In this document: in pieces, positions 9,901 through 35,201 of the stretch
How positions within the stretch are numbered: the stretch's first letter is position 1
Layout: the number at the start of each line of letters is the position of its first letter
NCBI GenBank assembly: GCA_015485495.1
Contig: WFTL01000025.1
Coordinates: 1 to 35,201 of the forward strand
DNA from: Planctomycetaceae bacterium
GTDB lineage: Bacteria; Planctomycetota; Planctomycetia; Planctomycetales; Planctomycetaceae
Direction: 5' to 3'
Length of the DNA: 35,201 bases
The notes under the pieces: model-generated
The model's input: the letters and a program-made list of their open reading frames with translations, nothing else
The model's database searches: none
Told to the model about the DNA's origin: nothing
Position numbers and translations under genes: made by a program

Positions 9901-10558
9901 GAATTCGTCGGAGTGGCAGATGGTGACGGATGGTGATGGACGCCGGACAGGCGGCGGAGCGACCCTCCGGAGGCGCCCTGTCGGCGGTTCGGAATCCTGC
10001 CGTATCTCCGGCCCGTTCTCAAGTGAACACTCAGCACCCCGGTCAAACCGGTGCACGCAGTGATTTGTCGGGTCACTGTCGAAACCAGGAACTGTCACGA
10101 TCTGGTCCGGTGGGGGCAGCCGGGTTCAGCGGTTTCGAGACGATCAATATGCGCACGGTAAGCTGCAGCGTGCAGGCCGGATCCGGAAACGGAGCGACGC
10201 CGATCCGGCAATCCGGAAGCTGCTGGCATGTGATCAGCGACCAATTGCCCGAACAACACGGCCTGTTTGCGGCCTCCGGGACTTTGTCCCATGTCACCGC
10301 CGGCTCTGCCGAGCAGAGAGAATGATCCGATGCGATGAAGGGATCTCTCACGGAGTCTCAGAGCCACAGAGGTCCCGCGTCCGGGGGCCGGGCCTCTGTG
10401 GCCAGGGACAGCGCATGGAAGCGGAACGGCTCGATCAGTCCGGTCGGTGCGCGGGTGATCGTTGTCACCGGAGGGCTCGCGCCCGCCGCTGTGATGGAGA
10501 ATCTGTCTGCAGAGGTGATCCGGCGGTCCGTGATCAGAACGAGTGGCTTTTCGGGGAG
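9901..10558. other. Long gene-free stretch
   Basis: 658 bases with no coding frame I can support. Open frames on both strands have random-looking Arg/Pro/Ser-rich products and no family resemblance. It contains the inverted repeat at 10363-10402. It may hold the promoter of the minus-strand operon that starts at 9900, or remnants of a decayed gene; neither can be shown by eye. Confidence 0.55.
10363..10402. repeat. Inverted repeat (10-bp perfect arms)
   Basis: GCCACAGAGG (10363-10372) and CCTCTGTGGC (10393-10402) are exact reverse complements around a GC-rich 20-base centre that itself can pair CCCG with CGGG. The outer arms resemble the CACAGAG-type intergenic repeats I recall from several bacterial genomes, but I see only one copy here. 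No T-tract follows, so it is not an obvious terminator. Confidence 0.5.
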
Positions 10559-30940: not shown

Positions 30941-32657
30941 CGGACCTGGACAGATTACGGTGCGGGGGATCTGCCTGCTGATTCCGGCTCTGACGGGAAC
31001 CGGAATCGGTCTGCTGGCCGCCCGCGAATCTCTGGCACTGCTGTCGCTGACGGTGCTGCTGTGGGTGTTCGGAGAATGGGTTCGCTTTCAGTGGTGGCTG
31101 CTGCGGGGAGCCGATCGGCTGCACGTCCGGCGCACGGTCAACGGCCGGTCGGATGCATCGGTCGTGTGTTTCGCCGGACGGCGGGTGCGGGTGCAGGTGC
31201 AGATTCGCTGTCCGGGAAAGCGGGTGCCGATCTGGACGCGTGTGGCGGATAGTGTCCCCGCGGAGCTGCTTCAGATCGATGGCTGCTGCGACAACGTGGT
31301 CACGCAGCCGGCCGAAACCGTGCTGCTGTCGTGGGACGGCCGACCGCGGGCTGCCGGCACGGCCGTGCTGCACGGAGTCCGGCTGCGGTTTCAGGATCCG
31401 GGCGGATTGTTCGCGGCTGATCGTTTCATCGCCTGTGCCTGCAGGCTGCGTATTCTGCCCACGTTCGATTCCGGCACGCGTCCCTCCACTGCGATCAAAC
31501 GCATCAACAGTCTGCCGCAGCACGGCATTCACCGGCTGCAGCGGGCCGGAATGGGGTCGGAACTGCTTGAAATCAGGGAGTATGTTCCGGGAGATCCGCC
31601 GAAATCCATCGCCTGGAAAGTGTCCGCGCGCCGTGGCCGTCTGATGACGTGCGAATACGAATCAGACGTCCCCATTCGCTGTATCGTGCATGTGGAAGAT
31701 TCGCCGCGCATGCGAACCGGACGTTTCGGGAACCGTCTGTGTGATACGGCCGCCCCCCTGGCGGCCGGAATCGTTCAGACAGCTCTGTCTGCGGGAGATC
31801 CGGCCGGGCTGGTCCTGTTCGGAAAAGCCGGCATTCGTCGGCTGTCACCAGGTCAGGGCGATCGGATGCTTTATCGGGTACTGGAACAACTGGCGCTGGC
31901 CTGTCGGCTGGAAACGTCCCCGGTTCGCTGGTCGCGCCGGCTGCAGCAGCACGTTCTGGAAGTCTGTCGAAACTGTCTGCCGGATCTTCTGGACCACCGG
32001 GTCAATCAGACACCGTGGACCGTCTTCCCGCTGCTACCGTGGAATCGGTCCGTGTTTCGGCAGCGATCCTGCCTGGCTGCGGTGATCGGGGAGGCGATGG
32101 GGCTGAGTGTGATGGATCGGCAGCGGCTGCTGGACGACGATGCATTCCTGGGGCAGTGGATGACCCGTCTGCTGGACGAACTGGGGTTTCCCTTCACAGT
32201 GCCGTCCGCCGGTTCTCCGGAACATCCGTTCGGTCCACCGGCGAATCCCGGATGCCTGGATCATCTGGTTCGATCGATCCGGCAGTCGGTCAGCCGGGCA
32301 CGAGACAACGAACACCACATCGTCATCTGCAGTCTGCTTCCGGAACATTCCTGGGAACCGATTCGGTCGGCGGTGCGGCTGGCCCGCAGCCGCCATCATC
32401 GTGTGGGATTCGTGTGTCCGCTGCCGGAAAGCCGCGGCATTTCCGCAAATGCCGATGATCCGCCAACCGCAGACAGCCTCCTGCACGAAGCCTGGCACGT
32501 CGAACTGCAGGACCGCTGCCGGGAACTCACTGAAAAGGTCCGTTCCGCGGGGGCTCAGATCGCCTTTGCCGGACGAGGACGCCCCCTGTCTCAGATTCTG
32601 AAGGACCTGCGTCTGGCTCATGCCGGACGCGGCCTGGCGGGAGGACGATGCGGATGA
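30933..32657 (+). CDS. DUF58-domain protein with degenerate metal site
   Basis: 574 residues. Two membrane spans lie at about 12-30 and 34-56. The DUF58 core is Y217-V-P-G-D221 ... I-A-W228-K-V-S-A-R233, the usual Y-x-x-G-D and W-x-x-S-A-R. The VWA-like start that follows is V-H-V-E-D-S-P-R-M (252-260), where a D-x-S-x-S metal site is expected; here Glu255 and Arg259 take the first Asp and last Ser positions, so metal binding is doubtful. A long C-terminal part (from ~330) contains H-I-V-I-C-S-L-L-P (452-460) and C-P-L-P-E-S-R, and is longer than typical DUF58 proteins. The partner is MoxR, encoded just upstream with an eight-base overlap. The role is unknown. Confidence 0.9.
   Translation: MSDGPGQITVRGICLLIPALTGTGIGLLAARESLALLSLTVLLWVFGEWVRFQWWLLRGADRLHVRRTVNGRSDASVVCFAGRRVRVQVQIRCPGKRVPIWTRVADSVPAELLQIDGCCDNVVTQPAETVLLSWDGRPRAAGTAVLHGVRLRFQDPGGLFAADRFIACACRLRILPTFDSGTRPSTAIKRINSLPQHGIHRLQRAGMGSELLEIREYVPGDPPKSIAWKVSARRGRLMTCEYESDVPIRCIVHVEDSPRMRTGRFGNRLCDTAAPLAAGIVQTALSAGDPAGLVLFGKAGIRRLSPGQGDRMLYRVLEQLALACRLETSPVRWSRRLQQHVLEVCRNCLPDLLDHRVNQTPWTVFPLLPWNRSVFRQRSCLAAVIGEAMGLSVMDRQRLLDDDAFLGQWMTRLLDELGFPFTVPSAGSPEHPFGPPANPGCLDHLVRSIRQSVSRARDNEHHIVICSLLPEHSWEPIRSAVRLARSRHHRVGFVCPLPESRGISANADDPPTADSLLHEAWHVELQDRCRELTEKVRSAGAQIAFAGRGRPLSQILKDLRLAHAGRGLAGGRCG
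32639..32645 (+). promoter_or_regulatory. Ribosome binding site inside the end of the DUF58 gene
   Basis: GGGAGGA lies eight bases before ATG at 32654 but only two before ATG at 32648. The spacing favours the second ATG for the next gene. Confidence 0.6.
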
Positions 32658-33436
32658 CGCGGCTGCCTGCTGAATCAGCCCGCAGCGATTCCGAACCGGC
32701 TGCGGGCGACTGGAAGCGTGCGGACACACGCATTCTCATTGTGCTTGCCTGTGTTCTGGTCTGGCTGGTGCAGGACAGCGGGATTTCCTCTTTGGCCCGC
32801 ATCATTGTCATCGGTCTGCTGCTGCTGGGGCTGGTGCGCTGGACGGCCGCCCTGCTGCTGGTGCTCTTTCAGCTTCACCTGTACTTCGGAACCGCATACG
32901 GATCGACCCTGTCGAATTCTCCGGTCATGGTTCAGGCAGTGCTGGTGACTCTGATGTCCCTGTCTCGACTGCGATCGTGCCAGGAACTGACGGGGGTGGA
33001 ATCCGTGGCGGCCCTGCTGATGTCTGCGGTCGGACGGGCCGCGGCCCGTTCGGCGACCTCCGAATCGGAGGACGAAGAACGGAGCGGCGGCCCCCGGGTT
33101 GCGTGGCGCGGCGAACTGCTCTGGATGGCTGTCGTGGGGATGATTCTGACTGGAACGGCCGGCATGGTGCTGCAGTGGTTTCCGGAAAGGCCCGAATCCG
33201 TCGGTCTGTACGGACTGACGCCGTCGGGGCTCAGAGCCATTCAGATCGGACTGCTGCTGTTCGCCGTGTGGCTGCCCGTTTCGCTGGTTGTGTCCGAAGG
33301 GCACTGGAAGCACCTGCGGCCACGACAGGCTCGTCTGTGGCTGCGCAGCCGTCTGCTGGAACAGCACCATCGGGAACTGAAGGCGATTGAACGCCGCCGA
33401 GAAGAAGGTATGCGCACGGTGAGCGACAGCATGTAG
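32654..33436 (+). CDS. Membrane protein, last gene of the MoxR operon
   Basis: 260 residues from ATG at 32654 (262 if the ATG at 32648 is used). Hydrophobic segments are at about 27-40, 47-63, 67-80, 88-100, 152-172 and 194-212. A charged, flexible loop with S-E-S-E-D-E-E lies near 133-145, and the C-terminal ~45 residues are basic and helical (L-E-Q-H-H-R-E-L-K-A-I-E-R-R-R-E-E), so cytoplasmic. No family is recognised. In related operons a membrane protein of the transglutaminase (TgpA) type often follows DUF58; this protein keeps only membrane spans and no papain-like Cys-His-Asp domain. It overlaps DUF58 by four bases, so co-translation is likely. Nothing on the + strand follows. Confidence 0.8.
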   Translation: MTRLPAESARSDSEPAAGDWKRADTRILIVLACVLVWLVQDSGISSLARIIVIGLLLLGLVRWTAALLLVLFQLHLYFGTAYGSTLSNSPVMVQAVLVTLMSLSRLRSCQELTGVESVAALLMSAVGRAAARSATSESEDEERSGGPRVAWRGELLWMAVVGMILTGTAGMVLQWFPERPESVGLYGLTPSGLRAIQIGLLLFAVWLPVSLVVSEGHWKHLRPRQARLWLRSRLLEQHHRELKAIERRREEGMRTVSDSM

Positions 33437-33459
33437 GCGGCAGGCCGGATCCAGGAACA

Positions 33460-33522
33460 GTGGAGGGCCCCGCTCCGTCGGGGCCGTCGATGACACGGAC
33501 GCGACAGAGCGCGTCCCTCCAC
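33460..33522. repeat. REP-like near-palindrome made of two mirrored hairpins
   Basis: Outer arms GTGGAGGG (33460-33467) and CCCTCCAC (33515-33522) are exact complements. Inside are two perfect seven-pair hairpins: GGCCCCG-CTCCGT-CGGGGCC (33466-33485) and GGACGCG-ACAGAG-CGCGTCC (33497-33516). The loop of one is almost the reverse complement of the other, so the whole element nearly equals its own reverse complement while the stems differ by paired changes. This is the layout of REP/BIME-type elements. No copy is seen elsewhere in the window. Confidence 0.75.
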
Positions 33523-33556
33523 ACACCCTTCGGACGGGCCGGACCCCGTTCCTCCG

Positions 33557-33600
33557 GCAGGCAATGGCATGCATACGGCGGATTGCAGGCAGTGGCCTGC
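33557..33600. repeat. Two related 16-base units, the second a perfect hairpin
   Basis: The unit at 33557-33572 (GCAGGCAATGGCATGC) and that at 33585-33600 (GCAGGCAGTGGCCTGC) differ at two positions and are 12 bases apart. The second is a perfect six-pair stem with a four-base loop; the first is a damaged version of it. Confidence 0.5.
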
Positions 33601-33650
33601 TGAGTTTCCCGATGCGACCTGAAATCACGGCGGAAGGCCGAAAGGCCTCC

Positions 33651-33666
33651 GGTGAGTACACTCACC
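33651..33666. repeat. Short inverted repeat
   Basis: GGTGAGT (33651-33657) and ACTCACC (33660-33666) are exact complements separated by two bases. It is preceded directly by another imperfect hairpin (AGGCC-GAAA-GGCCT type near 33634-33650). Confidence 0.45.
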
Positions 33667-33818
33667 CGCGCACCGACCGGGCGGCTTGCGCCGTTCCGCT
33701 ATCATTGCCACCGCCACGCGCCGGCGCTGCTGACGGTTCCGAGTCGCTCCGCTCCTGGATCCGGCCTGCAGGCTGCAGTTTGCCGTGCGTATACCAATTC
33801 CACCACCTTCGGAACGGT

Positions 33819-35201
33819 TCACTCCACCTTCAGAACGGCAGTGTGCGGCTGATCCGTTCGAATGATGACCTCTCCAGCGCCTCCGTCGCTTCCGTCTCGA
33901 AATGACGCGTCCACGCGCACCGTCAGAACGAAACGACGGCGCGGCTCATCGATGACACCATCCACCGTGATGCCCTGTCCGCAGTCCACCTGCGTGATCC
34001 GAAATTCCTCCTTCGCATTCGATCTCACGAGGATACGGTACTCCCGAGGCCAGTTGCTCTCGGAGGCGGCAACAGCAATCCGTGGAGGAATCACGGACAC
34101 CGGCGGCACCTTCTTCGCGCGCACATCGACAGCAATCTCAGGAAAACGCTCGTCATCGAACCGGAACGACAACAGGTCGCGGATGTCCCCTTCGGCGACA
34201 TCCGCCGCAATGGACACATCGAAAATCAGAGCCCCCGGAACGCTTTCCCGCTGCTGAACGGAAATCCCGGAATGGTTCCAGTGGACCTTTTCGAACTTCT
34301 CCAGCAGGCCCGGAACGACGGACTCGATACGCAGCCGTTTCTTCGGCGCTTCCTGGCTGTCGACGATGCCGAAGATCAACTGAGATGGAATCGCGCGAAG
34401 CTTCTTTCGGATGTCTGCTGTCAGACTCAGATGAATCGTCTTCAGCGATTCGTGGTCCGCATCCGTCGTGATCGTCACCCGCCCGGACTGACGCCCCAGC
34501 AGGTGTTCGGTCCACACGCGGTAAGAAACCAGGCAGACCGCACCGGGAGCGATCGTCTGCCCGACCGAAATGTCGATATCCTGGCAACTGCACGTTTTTT
34601 CGATCCCGGTGATCGTGATCTTCCGATCCGTCACATTCCGGATGGCGAAAACGTGGTGCAGATCGTCCCCGGGAGCCAGTTCACCCAGATCGACCGACCG
34701 CCGTTCATCCACGACGCCCTGTCCGCCATGATCCTTCTGCACACACCCGACCAATCCCGGCAACAGCAGCGCGAGCAGGACACAGATATGCTTTGTCTGT
34801 TTTCCGGCCTTCACGCCGGAAAACAGCATCCGCGTGAGAACCCCGCACAGAACCACAGGTGTTCCGCCCCAGTACCACGTAGCCAGTGTACTCCGGGCAG
34901 ACAATGTCAATGGTTCCGGAATCGGATCATCCGACACCAGAAGTCCAATTCCCGTAAAACGCGATTCGATCACTTCCCGCGACCGCCACGCGACAGTTCT
35001 CGGCGGACTGAAAAGATACAGGTCGCCGGTTTCAGAATCCTCGCCGAGCGATACCACGAAGTGATTCAAATCATCCGAACTTTCGAGATGCAGAATCGCA
35101 GGAACTCCCGTCTGCAGAATCTGCGAAAGCGGAACTTCGACGCCTGCTGCGCAGAGTCCGAGTTTCTGTGCAGCAACCCGGACGTGATGAAGACTCGTAC
35201 C
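33819..35201 (-). CDS. C39-peptidase-like domain joined to a DUF1573 region (5' end outside the window)
   Basis: The frame is open from the window edge to the TGA at 33819-33821: 460 codons. At the edge the sequence reads L-H-H-V-R-V-A-A-Q-K-L-G-L, then V-P-A-I-L-H-L-E, N-H-F-V-V-S-L and Y-L-F-S-P-P, which follows the C39 (bacteriocin-type) cysteine peptidase pattern; the Cys would be further upstream. His of N-H-F is kept, but the Asp of the usual D-P is Ser. Two hydrophobic segments follow, the second, H-I-C-V-L-L-A-L-L-L-P-G-L-V-G-C, looking like a lipoprotein signal. The rest is DUF1573-like with T-C-S-C-Q-D (Cys pair) and I-A-P-G. It may be one fused protein, or a separate DUF1573 lipoprotein may start at M-L-F-S-G-V-K (ATG near 34830). 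Confidence 0.75.
   Translation of the reverse strand, partial: GTSLHHVRVAAQKLGLCAAGVEVPLSQILQTGVPAILHLESSDDLNHFVVSLGEDSETGDLYLFSPPRTVAWRSREVIESRFTGIGLLVSDDPIPEPLTLSARSTLATWYWGGTPVVLCGVLTRMLFSGVKAGKQTKHICVLLALLLPGLVGCVQKDHGGQGVVDERRSVDLGELAPGDDLHHVFAIRNVTDRKITITGIEKTCSCQDIDISVGQTIAPGAVCLVSYRVWTEHLLGRQSGRVTITTDADHESLKTIHLSLTADIRKKLRAIPSQLIFGIVDSQEAPKKRLRIESVVPGLLEKFEKVHWNHSGISVQQRESVPGALIFDVSIAADVAEGDIRDLLSFRFDDERFPEIAVDVRAKKVPPVSVIPPRIAVAASESNWPREYRILVRSNAKEEFRITQVDCGQGITVDGVIDEPRRRFVLTVRVDASFRDGSDGGAGEVIIRTDQPHTAVLKVE

Follow-up and report, generated by a model that had tools for sequence, protein, structure and literature searches.

The window, by which we mean the whole stretch of 35,201 nucleotides of Planctomycetaceae DNA that was analysed, contains two convergent ORFs (32648-33436, plus strand, and 33819-35069, minus strand) separated by a gap of 382 nt. 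Within this gap lies a 63-bp element that reads directly as GTGGAG-GGCCCCG-CTCCGT-CGGGGCC-GTCGATGACAC-GGACGCG-ACAGAG-CGCGTCC-CTCCAC (Table 1). The earlier note, made from the letters of the window, had described it as a mirrored double hairpin nested in 8-base outer arms, with mirrored loops and paired differences between the halves, and this description was borne out: the two 7-pair stems have no mismatch, all 8 positions of the outer arms (GTGGAGGG/CCCTCCAC) are complementary, the loops (CTCCGT and, read on the minus strand, CTCTGT) differ by one base, and two paired changes (C-G to A-T and C-G to G-C) set the stems of the two halves apart. The element is also nearly its own reverse complement, as had been claimed, with 46 of 63 positions equal. 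Each half matched our covariance model R1 of single hairpins, type A at C25:33459-33489 (plus strand, 51.9 bits) and type B at C25:33493-33523 (minus strand, 47.6 bits).

Table 1. Location of the repeats in the window and of the transposase gene with its neighbouring repeats on contig C72 of the same genome
Feature	Position	Strand	Details
REP doublet (REPIN/BIME-like unit)	33460-33522	.	inverted pair of REPs with outward tags; spacer 33486-33496 (11 nt)
REP type A	33462-33485	+	tag GGAG 33462-33465, stem GGCCCCG/CGGGGCC, loop CTCCGT
REP type B	33497-33520	-	tag GGAG 33520-33517 (minus strand), stem GGACGCG/CGCGTCC, loop CTCTGT
REP2, 5' half	33440-33456	+	head GCAG, joined to the REP doublet; 26.6 bits
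REP2 copy	33728-33769	-	closes the mosaic on the right; 58.1 bits
REP2 copy	10172-10213	+	
Mosaic core	33553-33725	+	doublet included in some copies; own genome 23 matches, counting this one, two congeners none
Mosaic core match	10420-10495	-	
RAYT gene	C72:28503-28976		REP-associated tyrosine transposase
REP type A copies by RAYT	C72: 28422; 29007, 29082, 29157	+	B partners truncated or altered

In folding tests, none of 200 dinucleotide shuffles on either strand folded as well as the 83-nt segment 33450-33532 (z -3.7 and -4.4). In its minimum-energy RNA fold, this segment forms one long hairpin with imperfections instead of the two small ones. Since two stem pairs, the first two G-C ones, also belong to the outer arms, the long and the double form are in part mutually exclusive. 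Across the whole 35,201-base window, with spacers of 0 to 20, only this doublet reached at least 23/28 complementary arm positions. A chance palindrome was rejected on the basis of the shuffle folding test, the lack of a second inverted repeat of this score in the window and the presence of multiple copies; a known RNA family was rejected on the basis of an Rfam scan of the whole window, which gave no match at the gathering threshold.

The genome of origin is a draft of 4.67 Mb in 180 contigs. A blastn search with a 101-base query (the element plus flanks) gave 48 matches at E ≤ 10, many of the weaker ones falling on a second repeat, REP2, which was included in the flanks. We built R1 from 24 single hairpins (alignment A1), 23 found by perfect pairing and one located beside the transposase gene, after excluding as unrelated three of the 26 hairpins found by the perfect-stem search. 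With R1, the genome-wide search that the earlier note had proposed yielded 35 single REPs at E ≤ 1. At E < 0.01 there were 32, which form 19 clusters and are spread over 16 contigs; nine of the clusters have opposite-orientation neighbours and the other ten have none at E < 0.01. Hence, the element is a short GC-rich palindrome in many dispersed copies, in part arranged as inverted pairs, and belongs to the REP/BIME/REPIN elements in the broad sense. The earlier note had regarded a single copy, together with absence in relatives, as evidence against its reading; the repeat is multicopy, though the two congeneric genomes lacked a match. REP families usually have over 100 copies according to the available text of PMC2817692, so the copy number here is low, although collapse at contig ends may hide copies. 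In A1, the tag is GGAG in 23 of 24 hairpins and GAAG in one, preceded by T in 22 and by C in two, and the arms pair at 99% of positions, partly by selection, since the source search required perfect stems. The core of REP type A is letter-identical at nine sites, and type B stems in the perfect-pairing set are GGACGGG (seven copies) or GGACGCG (three).

REP2 has a head that is mostly G[C/T]AG and a stem GCCGGATC...GATCCGGC. Its model, R2, had matches in 8 of 38 genomes: 57 in the genome of origin, 31 in G008, 7 in G012 and one each in G001 (weak), G010, G016, G039 and G044, with none in G002. We rejected the possibility that REP2 belongs to the same family as the REP of the window doublet (REP1), based on its other head, longer stem, lack of compensated changes in 18 copies and other distribution. 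In a search for a cognate transposase of REP2, R2 gave one match (L083, 24.8 bits) around 20 strong RAYT loci from relatives (L071-L090), and none at the one G008 RAYT locus among them. The doublet and REP2 are parts of a larger mosaic (33408-33792), which recurs at full length at 87% identity in L003 and partially in L002, L004, L019 and L030, its core abutting REP2 in several copies; this repeat of 330-385 bp may be a species-specific MITE. Six mosaic copies were aligned, that of the window included, with the doublet present in four, half of it in one and none in one.

The earlier note had read the element as REP/BIME-like, with no transposase of the RAYT type in the window, and had proposed a search for one in the genome. 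This reading holds: the only match to PF01797 (Y1_Tnp) in the whole genome is on contig C72 (C72:28581-28844, 31 bits, cut-off 23), in a gene located among copies of the window REP. The product matched NF047646 (REP-associated tyrosine transposase) with 96 bits, above the NCBIfam cut-off of 80, and PDB 4er8 (E. coli TnpArep) with an E value of 2e-7, which place it in the HUH-Y1 REP-associated family. In the alignment to 4er8, from which the numbering is taken, W94, Q95, R104 and the Y115 motif are kept and E100 is replaced by D; the frame is open, with the HUH, W-Q and Y motifs present, and the tyrosine equivalent to Y115 is residue 129 of the frame used (158 residues, residue 1 being the one before Met). 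By the motifs printed in the accessible part of PMC6006769, DHIH, WQ, E100D and YVLNNP resemble in part those of subclasses 2.4, 2.5 and 2.7 alike. One REP A match ends 50 nt upstream of the RAYT start; past the stop, a partial B hairpin is followed by three REP A matches, all within 211 nt and with altered B partners between them, and REP2 copies lie further out on both sides. The gene is thus flanked by REPs of its own family, with the strict inverted flanking described in the available text of PMC2817692 blurred on C72. The RAYT-adjacent REP A copies (L117, 820-1620) share one stem mismatch, GGCACCG/CGGGGCC.

For comparison, we collected 106 related RAYT loci, the C72 locus included and with at least four pairs of identical rows. 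Under a looser placement of the head, TGGAG-headed hairpins numbered 118 within 700 nt of the RAYT (137.7 kb) versus 16 further out (329.9 kb), and GTAG-headed hairpins 56 versus 26. When the tetramer directly 5' of hairpins was counted without regard to any tag, GGAG ranked top (34/106 loci within 700 nt and 12/106 further out) and GTAG second (10 near versus 9 far). GGAG stands at the hairpin foot at 40 loci (142 hairpins), and the commonest loop over these loci is CTCCGT (13.2/40 locus weights, or about 17.4 including CTCTGT, CTTCGT and CTTTGT), other loops including TCCT, GCT, GTCCCT and TTCCAC. A tag GTGG placed two bases back was not supported, as G stands two bases before GGAG in just 15% (weighted over the 40 loci). 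Around the related RAYTs, the stems differ yet stay paired, the tag being kept across loci. A head-and-loop pattern, which allows G-T pairs and makes no selection for pairing, is a fairer test of this than the 99% of A1: among its 106 hits, all seven pairs were formed in 60 and six in 10, and the arms paired at 78% of cells versus 50% after shuffling (maximum 55%). The related RAYTs that have GGAG-tagged hairpins beside them carry the labels of eight named phyla; in two of these (Pseudomonadota and Hydrogenedentota) the loops are other than CTCCGT. Most of the related loci are from MAGs, and misbinned contigs could inflate the phylum count.

We then placed the tags on the RAYT tree. A rule-based procedure assigned tags to 50 of the 106 loci (32 GGAG, 17 GTAG and 1 GTGG) and left 56 without, including 26 of the 29 rows of a planctomycete-rich branch; the C72 RAYT (L031) was labelled GGAG by hand, since the rule requires perfect stems. 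A first tree contained 101 of the 106 rows, five under 110 residues having been dropped, and a more careful tree contained 97, additionally without L112, L113, L114 and L116. The GGAG rows (29) and the GTAG rows (16) fell on two sides of one branch with support of 98/97, present in 99% of bootstrap trees, the bootstrap of the careful tree being not fully settled (0.979). A single tag change is needed, versus a mean of 13.4 after shuffling, or two with the long branch L116 kept (101-row tree). At the position of H101 of E. coli, H is found in E. coli and in all 16 GTAG rows, whereas the 29 GGAG rows have T (25), R (3) or S (1); in left-out rows aligned by eye, this position is M in L112 (GTAG), R in L115 and V in L116 (both GGAG). 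Four columns, 113, 115, 116 and 26, fully separate the tag labels, and the first three fall within W94-R104 of E. coli TnpArep, the segment in which the tag-contacting residues are placed in the available parts of PMC6006769 and PMC8266576 (hypergeometric 0.0015 for three of four columns in an 11-residue segment over 138 columns, post hoc). Since the two tag groups are the two sides of one branch, many columns differ between them, and the association of tag and protein segment is a correlation along that branch. E. coli has W at position 113 as does the GGAG group, so this column is no tag reader by itself, and assignments of single residues to the bases that they would read are predictions.

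We slightly favor the view that this RAYT branch has spread horizontally over up to eight phyla with a different code, namely a GGAG tag, often a CTCCGT loop, and, in the segment that would read the tag, a substitution of H101 (E. coli numbering; H in the GTAG enzymes), mostly by threonine. If this is true, swapping the residues of this segment would swap the tag specificity. According to the accessible text of PMC8266576, the last two tag bases are strongly selected in a Marinomonas enzyme with a CT substrate; as GGAG keeps these bases (AG), cutting at CT would be kept as well. The earlier note had not gone as far as the GGAG tag, which stands in place of GT(A/G)G, or its link to one cross-phylum RAYT branch.

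Among 59 genomes, that of origin included, R1 matches at E ≤ 0.01 were found in the genome of origin and G045 only, stricter filters having been used above 40 genomes, whereas NF047646 matches at E ≤ 1e-5 were present in 47. The two congeneric genomes had neither an R1 match at E ≤ 0.01 nor an NF047646 match at E ≤ 1e-5. Relatives of the C72 RAYT at E ≤ 1e-10 were found in 29 of 397 genomes of the class (its own included), the best other being 55% identical. Among the 80 of 119 loci that were kept, the nearest RAYT in a named genome is that of a Planctomycetota MAG (61%), followed by those of a Dehalococcoidia MAG, Lentisphaerae, Kiritimatiellae, Verrucomicrobia and Desulfobacterales (54-57%). 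In the careful tree, the C72 RAYT pairs with that of the Planctomycetota MAG (100/86), and the next node out adds those of Dehalococcoidia and a Verrucomicrobia MAG (96/89). Five RAYTs from f1, the family of its own genome, are united with it only when 62 rows are taken together, and another one only at the midpoint root. The RAYT rows of f1 genomes G199, G226 and G031 are identical to rows of loci named Schlesneria, Fuerstiella and Planctomycetaceae, which makes this the most likely family of origin of the window.

The tree placement of the C72 RAYT and the lack of matches in the congeners indicate horizontal gain, and a source outside the genus probably supplied the RAYT together with the REPs; we infer the direction of the gain, and loss of both from the congeners could also account for their absence. 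An empty site of the window doublet was sought in the congeners and not found, the genes flanking it having congener matches of 37-43% (upstream, in both congeners) and only 23-25% (downstream). All 24 letters of the core of the window REP B recur unchanged in L125 (Planctomycetota), L129 (Kiritimatiellae) and L132 (Desulfobacterales). Genome-wide R1 searches were positive in 14 of 14 genomes with related RAYTs (5, 6, 79, 8, 12, 8, 147, 7, 2, 15, 91, 2, 20 and 59 matches), these genomes having been chosen for R1 matches near their RAYT. In the Desulfobacterales genome G410 (L224-L243; 147 R1 matches), the doublet lies inside a longer repeat of its own and many copies of one REP have equal scores, suggesting recent expansion. 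For one of the 20 copies fetched from this genome (L243), a CT immediately preceding GGTGGAG lies close to where the shared sequence begins; no CT is present in the 20 bases upstream of the window copy, and we make no claim about a CT cut site.

R1 matches number 63 in G045, which belongs to the same class and is a complete genome; the ten that were read (L061-L070) are GGAG-GGACCCG-CT[TC]GT hairpins with a five-base loop. Its sole match to the C72 RAYT is 27% identical and is bracketed by a different REP, TGGAGT-GCGGCGA-TTTA. G045 thus illustrates that REPs of the window design can exist without a close RAYT: the RAYT can have been lost, the REPs can be an orphan family, or another enzyme can serve them.

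Our observations comprise doublets in multiple copies, a common design of tag, stem and loop, co-location with the genome's only RAYT match, the lack of a match for either in the two congeners and a tag split on the RAYT tree. The window element is a non-autonomous REP doublet, most likely served and spread by the C72 RAYT via its GGAG tag, and we hold this reading with considerable confidence. The RAYT would bind the single-stranded REP hairpin through the tag and loop, cut beside it with tyrosine 129 and re-join it elsewhere, such that doublets would spread as small mobile units; both the cutting and the spread are predicted from sequence. The tag read by this RAYT branch would be GGAG in place of the GT(A/G)G of classical RAYTs, and the change from T to G at tag position 2 is accompanied by changed residues in the tag-contact segment. 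REP2 brackets this gene too, so that the C72 RAYT may serve either family, and the surrounding mosaic could have carried the window doublet along. Indeed, the element may be a passenger of a larger, REP2-bounded MITE-like mosaic of about 330-385 bp mobilised by another enzyme, which we regard as possible though on the unlikely side; the whole of 33408-33792 recurs as a block with many core matches in the genome, and the Desulfobacterales doublet likewise lies within a longer repeat, but doublets also occur outside the mosaic (C143, C40, C107 and C117), not all mosaic copies carry complete REPs, and the 106 RAYT loci, in which the REP design is found again, gave no match to the mosaic core at 1e-3.

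It is unlikely that the REPs are dead remnants of past activity and that the RAYT is now in decay or has another use: the stem mismatch of the RAYT-adjacent REPs, their truncated or altered B partners and the REPs of G045 without a close RAYT would agree with decay, but the RAYT frame is open with its motifs, and the nine sites with a letter-identical REP A core argue against it. We consider it improbable that the element is used by the host, whatever its origin, as a bidirectional terminator or mRNA 3'-end hairpin between the convergent genes; the 382-nt convergent gap and the strong fold on both strands would suit such a role, but no T-run follows either hairpin, by reading of the sequence, and the loci conserve the tag, for which a terminator would have no use, but vary in their stems. 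Host use and spread by the C72 RAYT are not mutually exclusive.

As for known systems, the GT(A/G)G REPs and REPINs/BIMEs of Gammaproteobacteria (E. coli, Pseudomonas and Stenotrophomonas), with their RAYT/TnpAREP, share with the present system a short hairpin with four tag bases on its 5' side, inverted doublets that combine two types of stem, a REP-bracketed RAYT gene and stems that keep pairing. The differences here are the GGAG tag, the six-base CTCCGT loop (in the window, and the commonest at related loci) and the RAYT tag-contact segment; by the published tag, the window element, with GGAG and not GT(A/G)G at the hairpin foot, is not a canonical REP but belongs to the GGAG-tagged branch, which the sequences suggest to work like the GT(A/G)G systems. 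The Class 3 TnpAY1 of Planctomycetes, as described in the accessible part of PMC6006769, has in common the host group, a REPtron-like neighbourhood and a non-GT(A/G)G tag, but is characterised there by a CnGA foot, NHVH, W[TA] and YV..EQ motifs and weaker structures; the DHIH, WQ and YVLNNP motifs, GGAG foot and perfect seven-pair stems of the window place the present system outside that class. The GTAG- and CGTC-tagged repeat superfamilies of PMC3733652, in its available text, are likewise palindromes tagged at one end, form dimers and occur in PVC bacteria, but REP1 has neither tag, REP2 with its G[C/T]AG head being nearer the GTAG type; the word GGAG is absent from the main text of that paper. 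Literature searches (RAYT name, TGGAG, REPtron) gave no TGGAG paper, and no RAYT paper with GGAG was among the matches listed. Because supplementary tables and most subscription papers were beyond their reach, we claim no priority for the GGAG tag.

In-vitro recognition has been described for three RAYT systems, all GTAG-tagged, in the accessible text of PMC8266576. A cross-phylum branch with another tag and a matching change in the protein segment provides a natural experiment on the pairing of residues with the tag bases that they read, and on whether cutting is guided by the tag, as it is in IS200/IS605. In addition, the identity of the REP B core across three groups and the lack of a match to either part in the congeners suggest that REPs move between phyla with their enzyme. 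In G045, the very distant RAYT (L116, 1400-2950) lies amid TGGAGT-tagged hairpins with TTTA or TTCA loops, possibly representing an independent GGAG tag.
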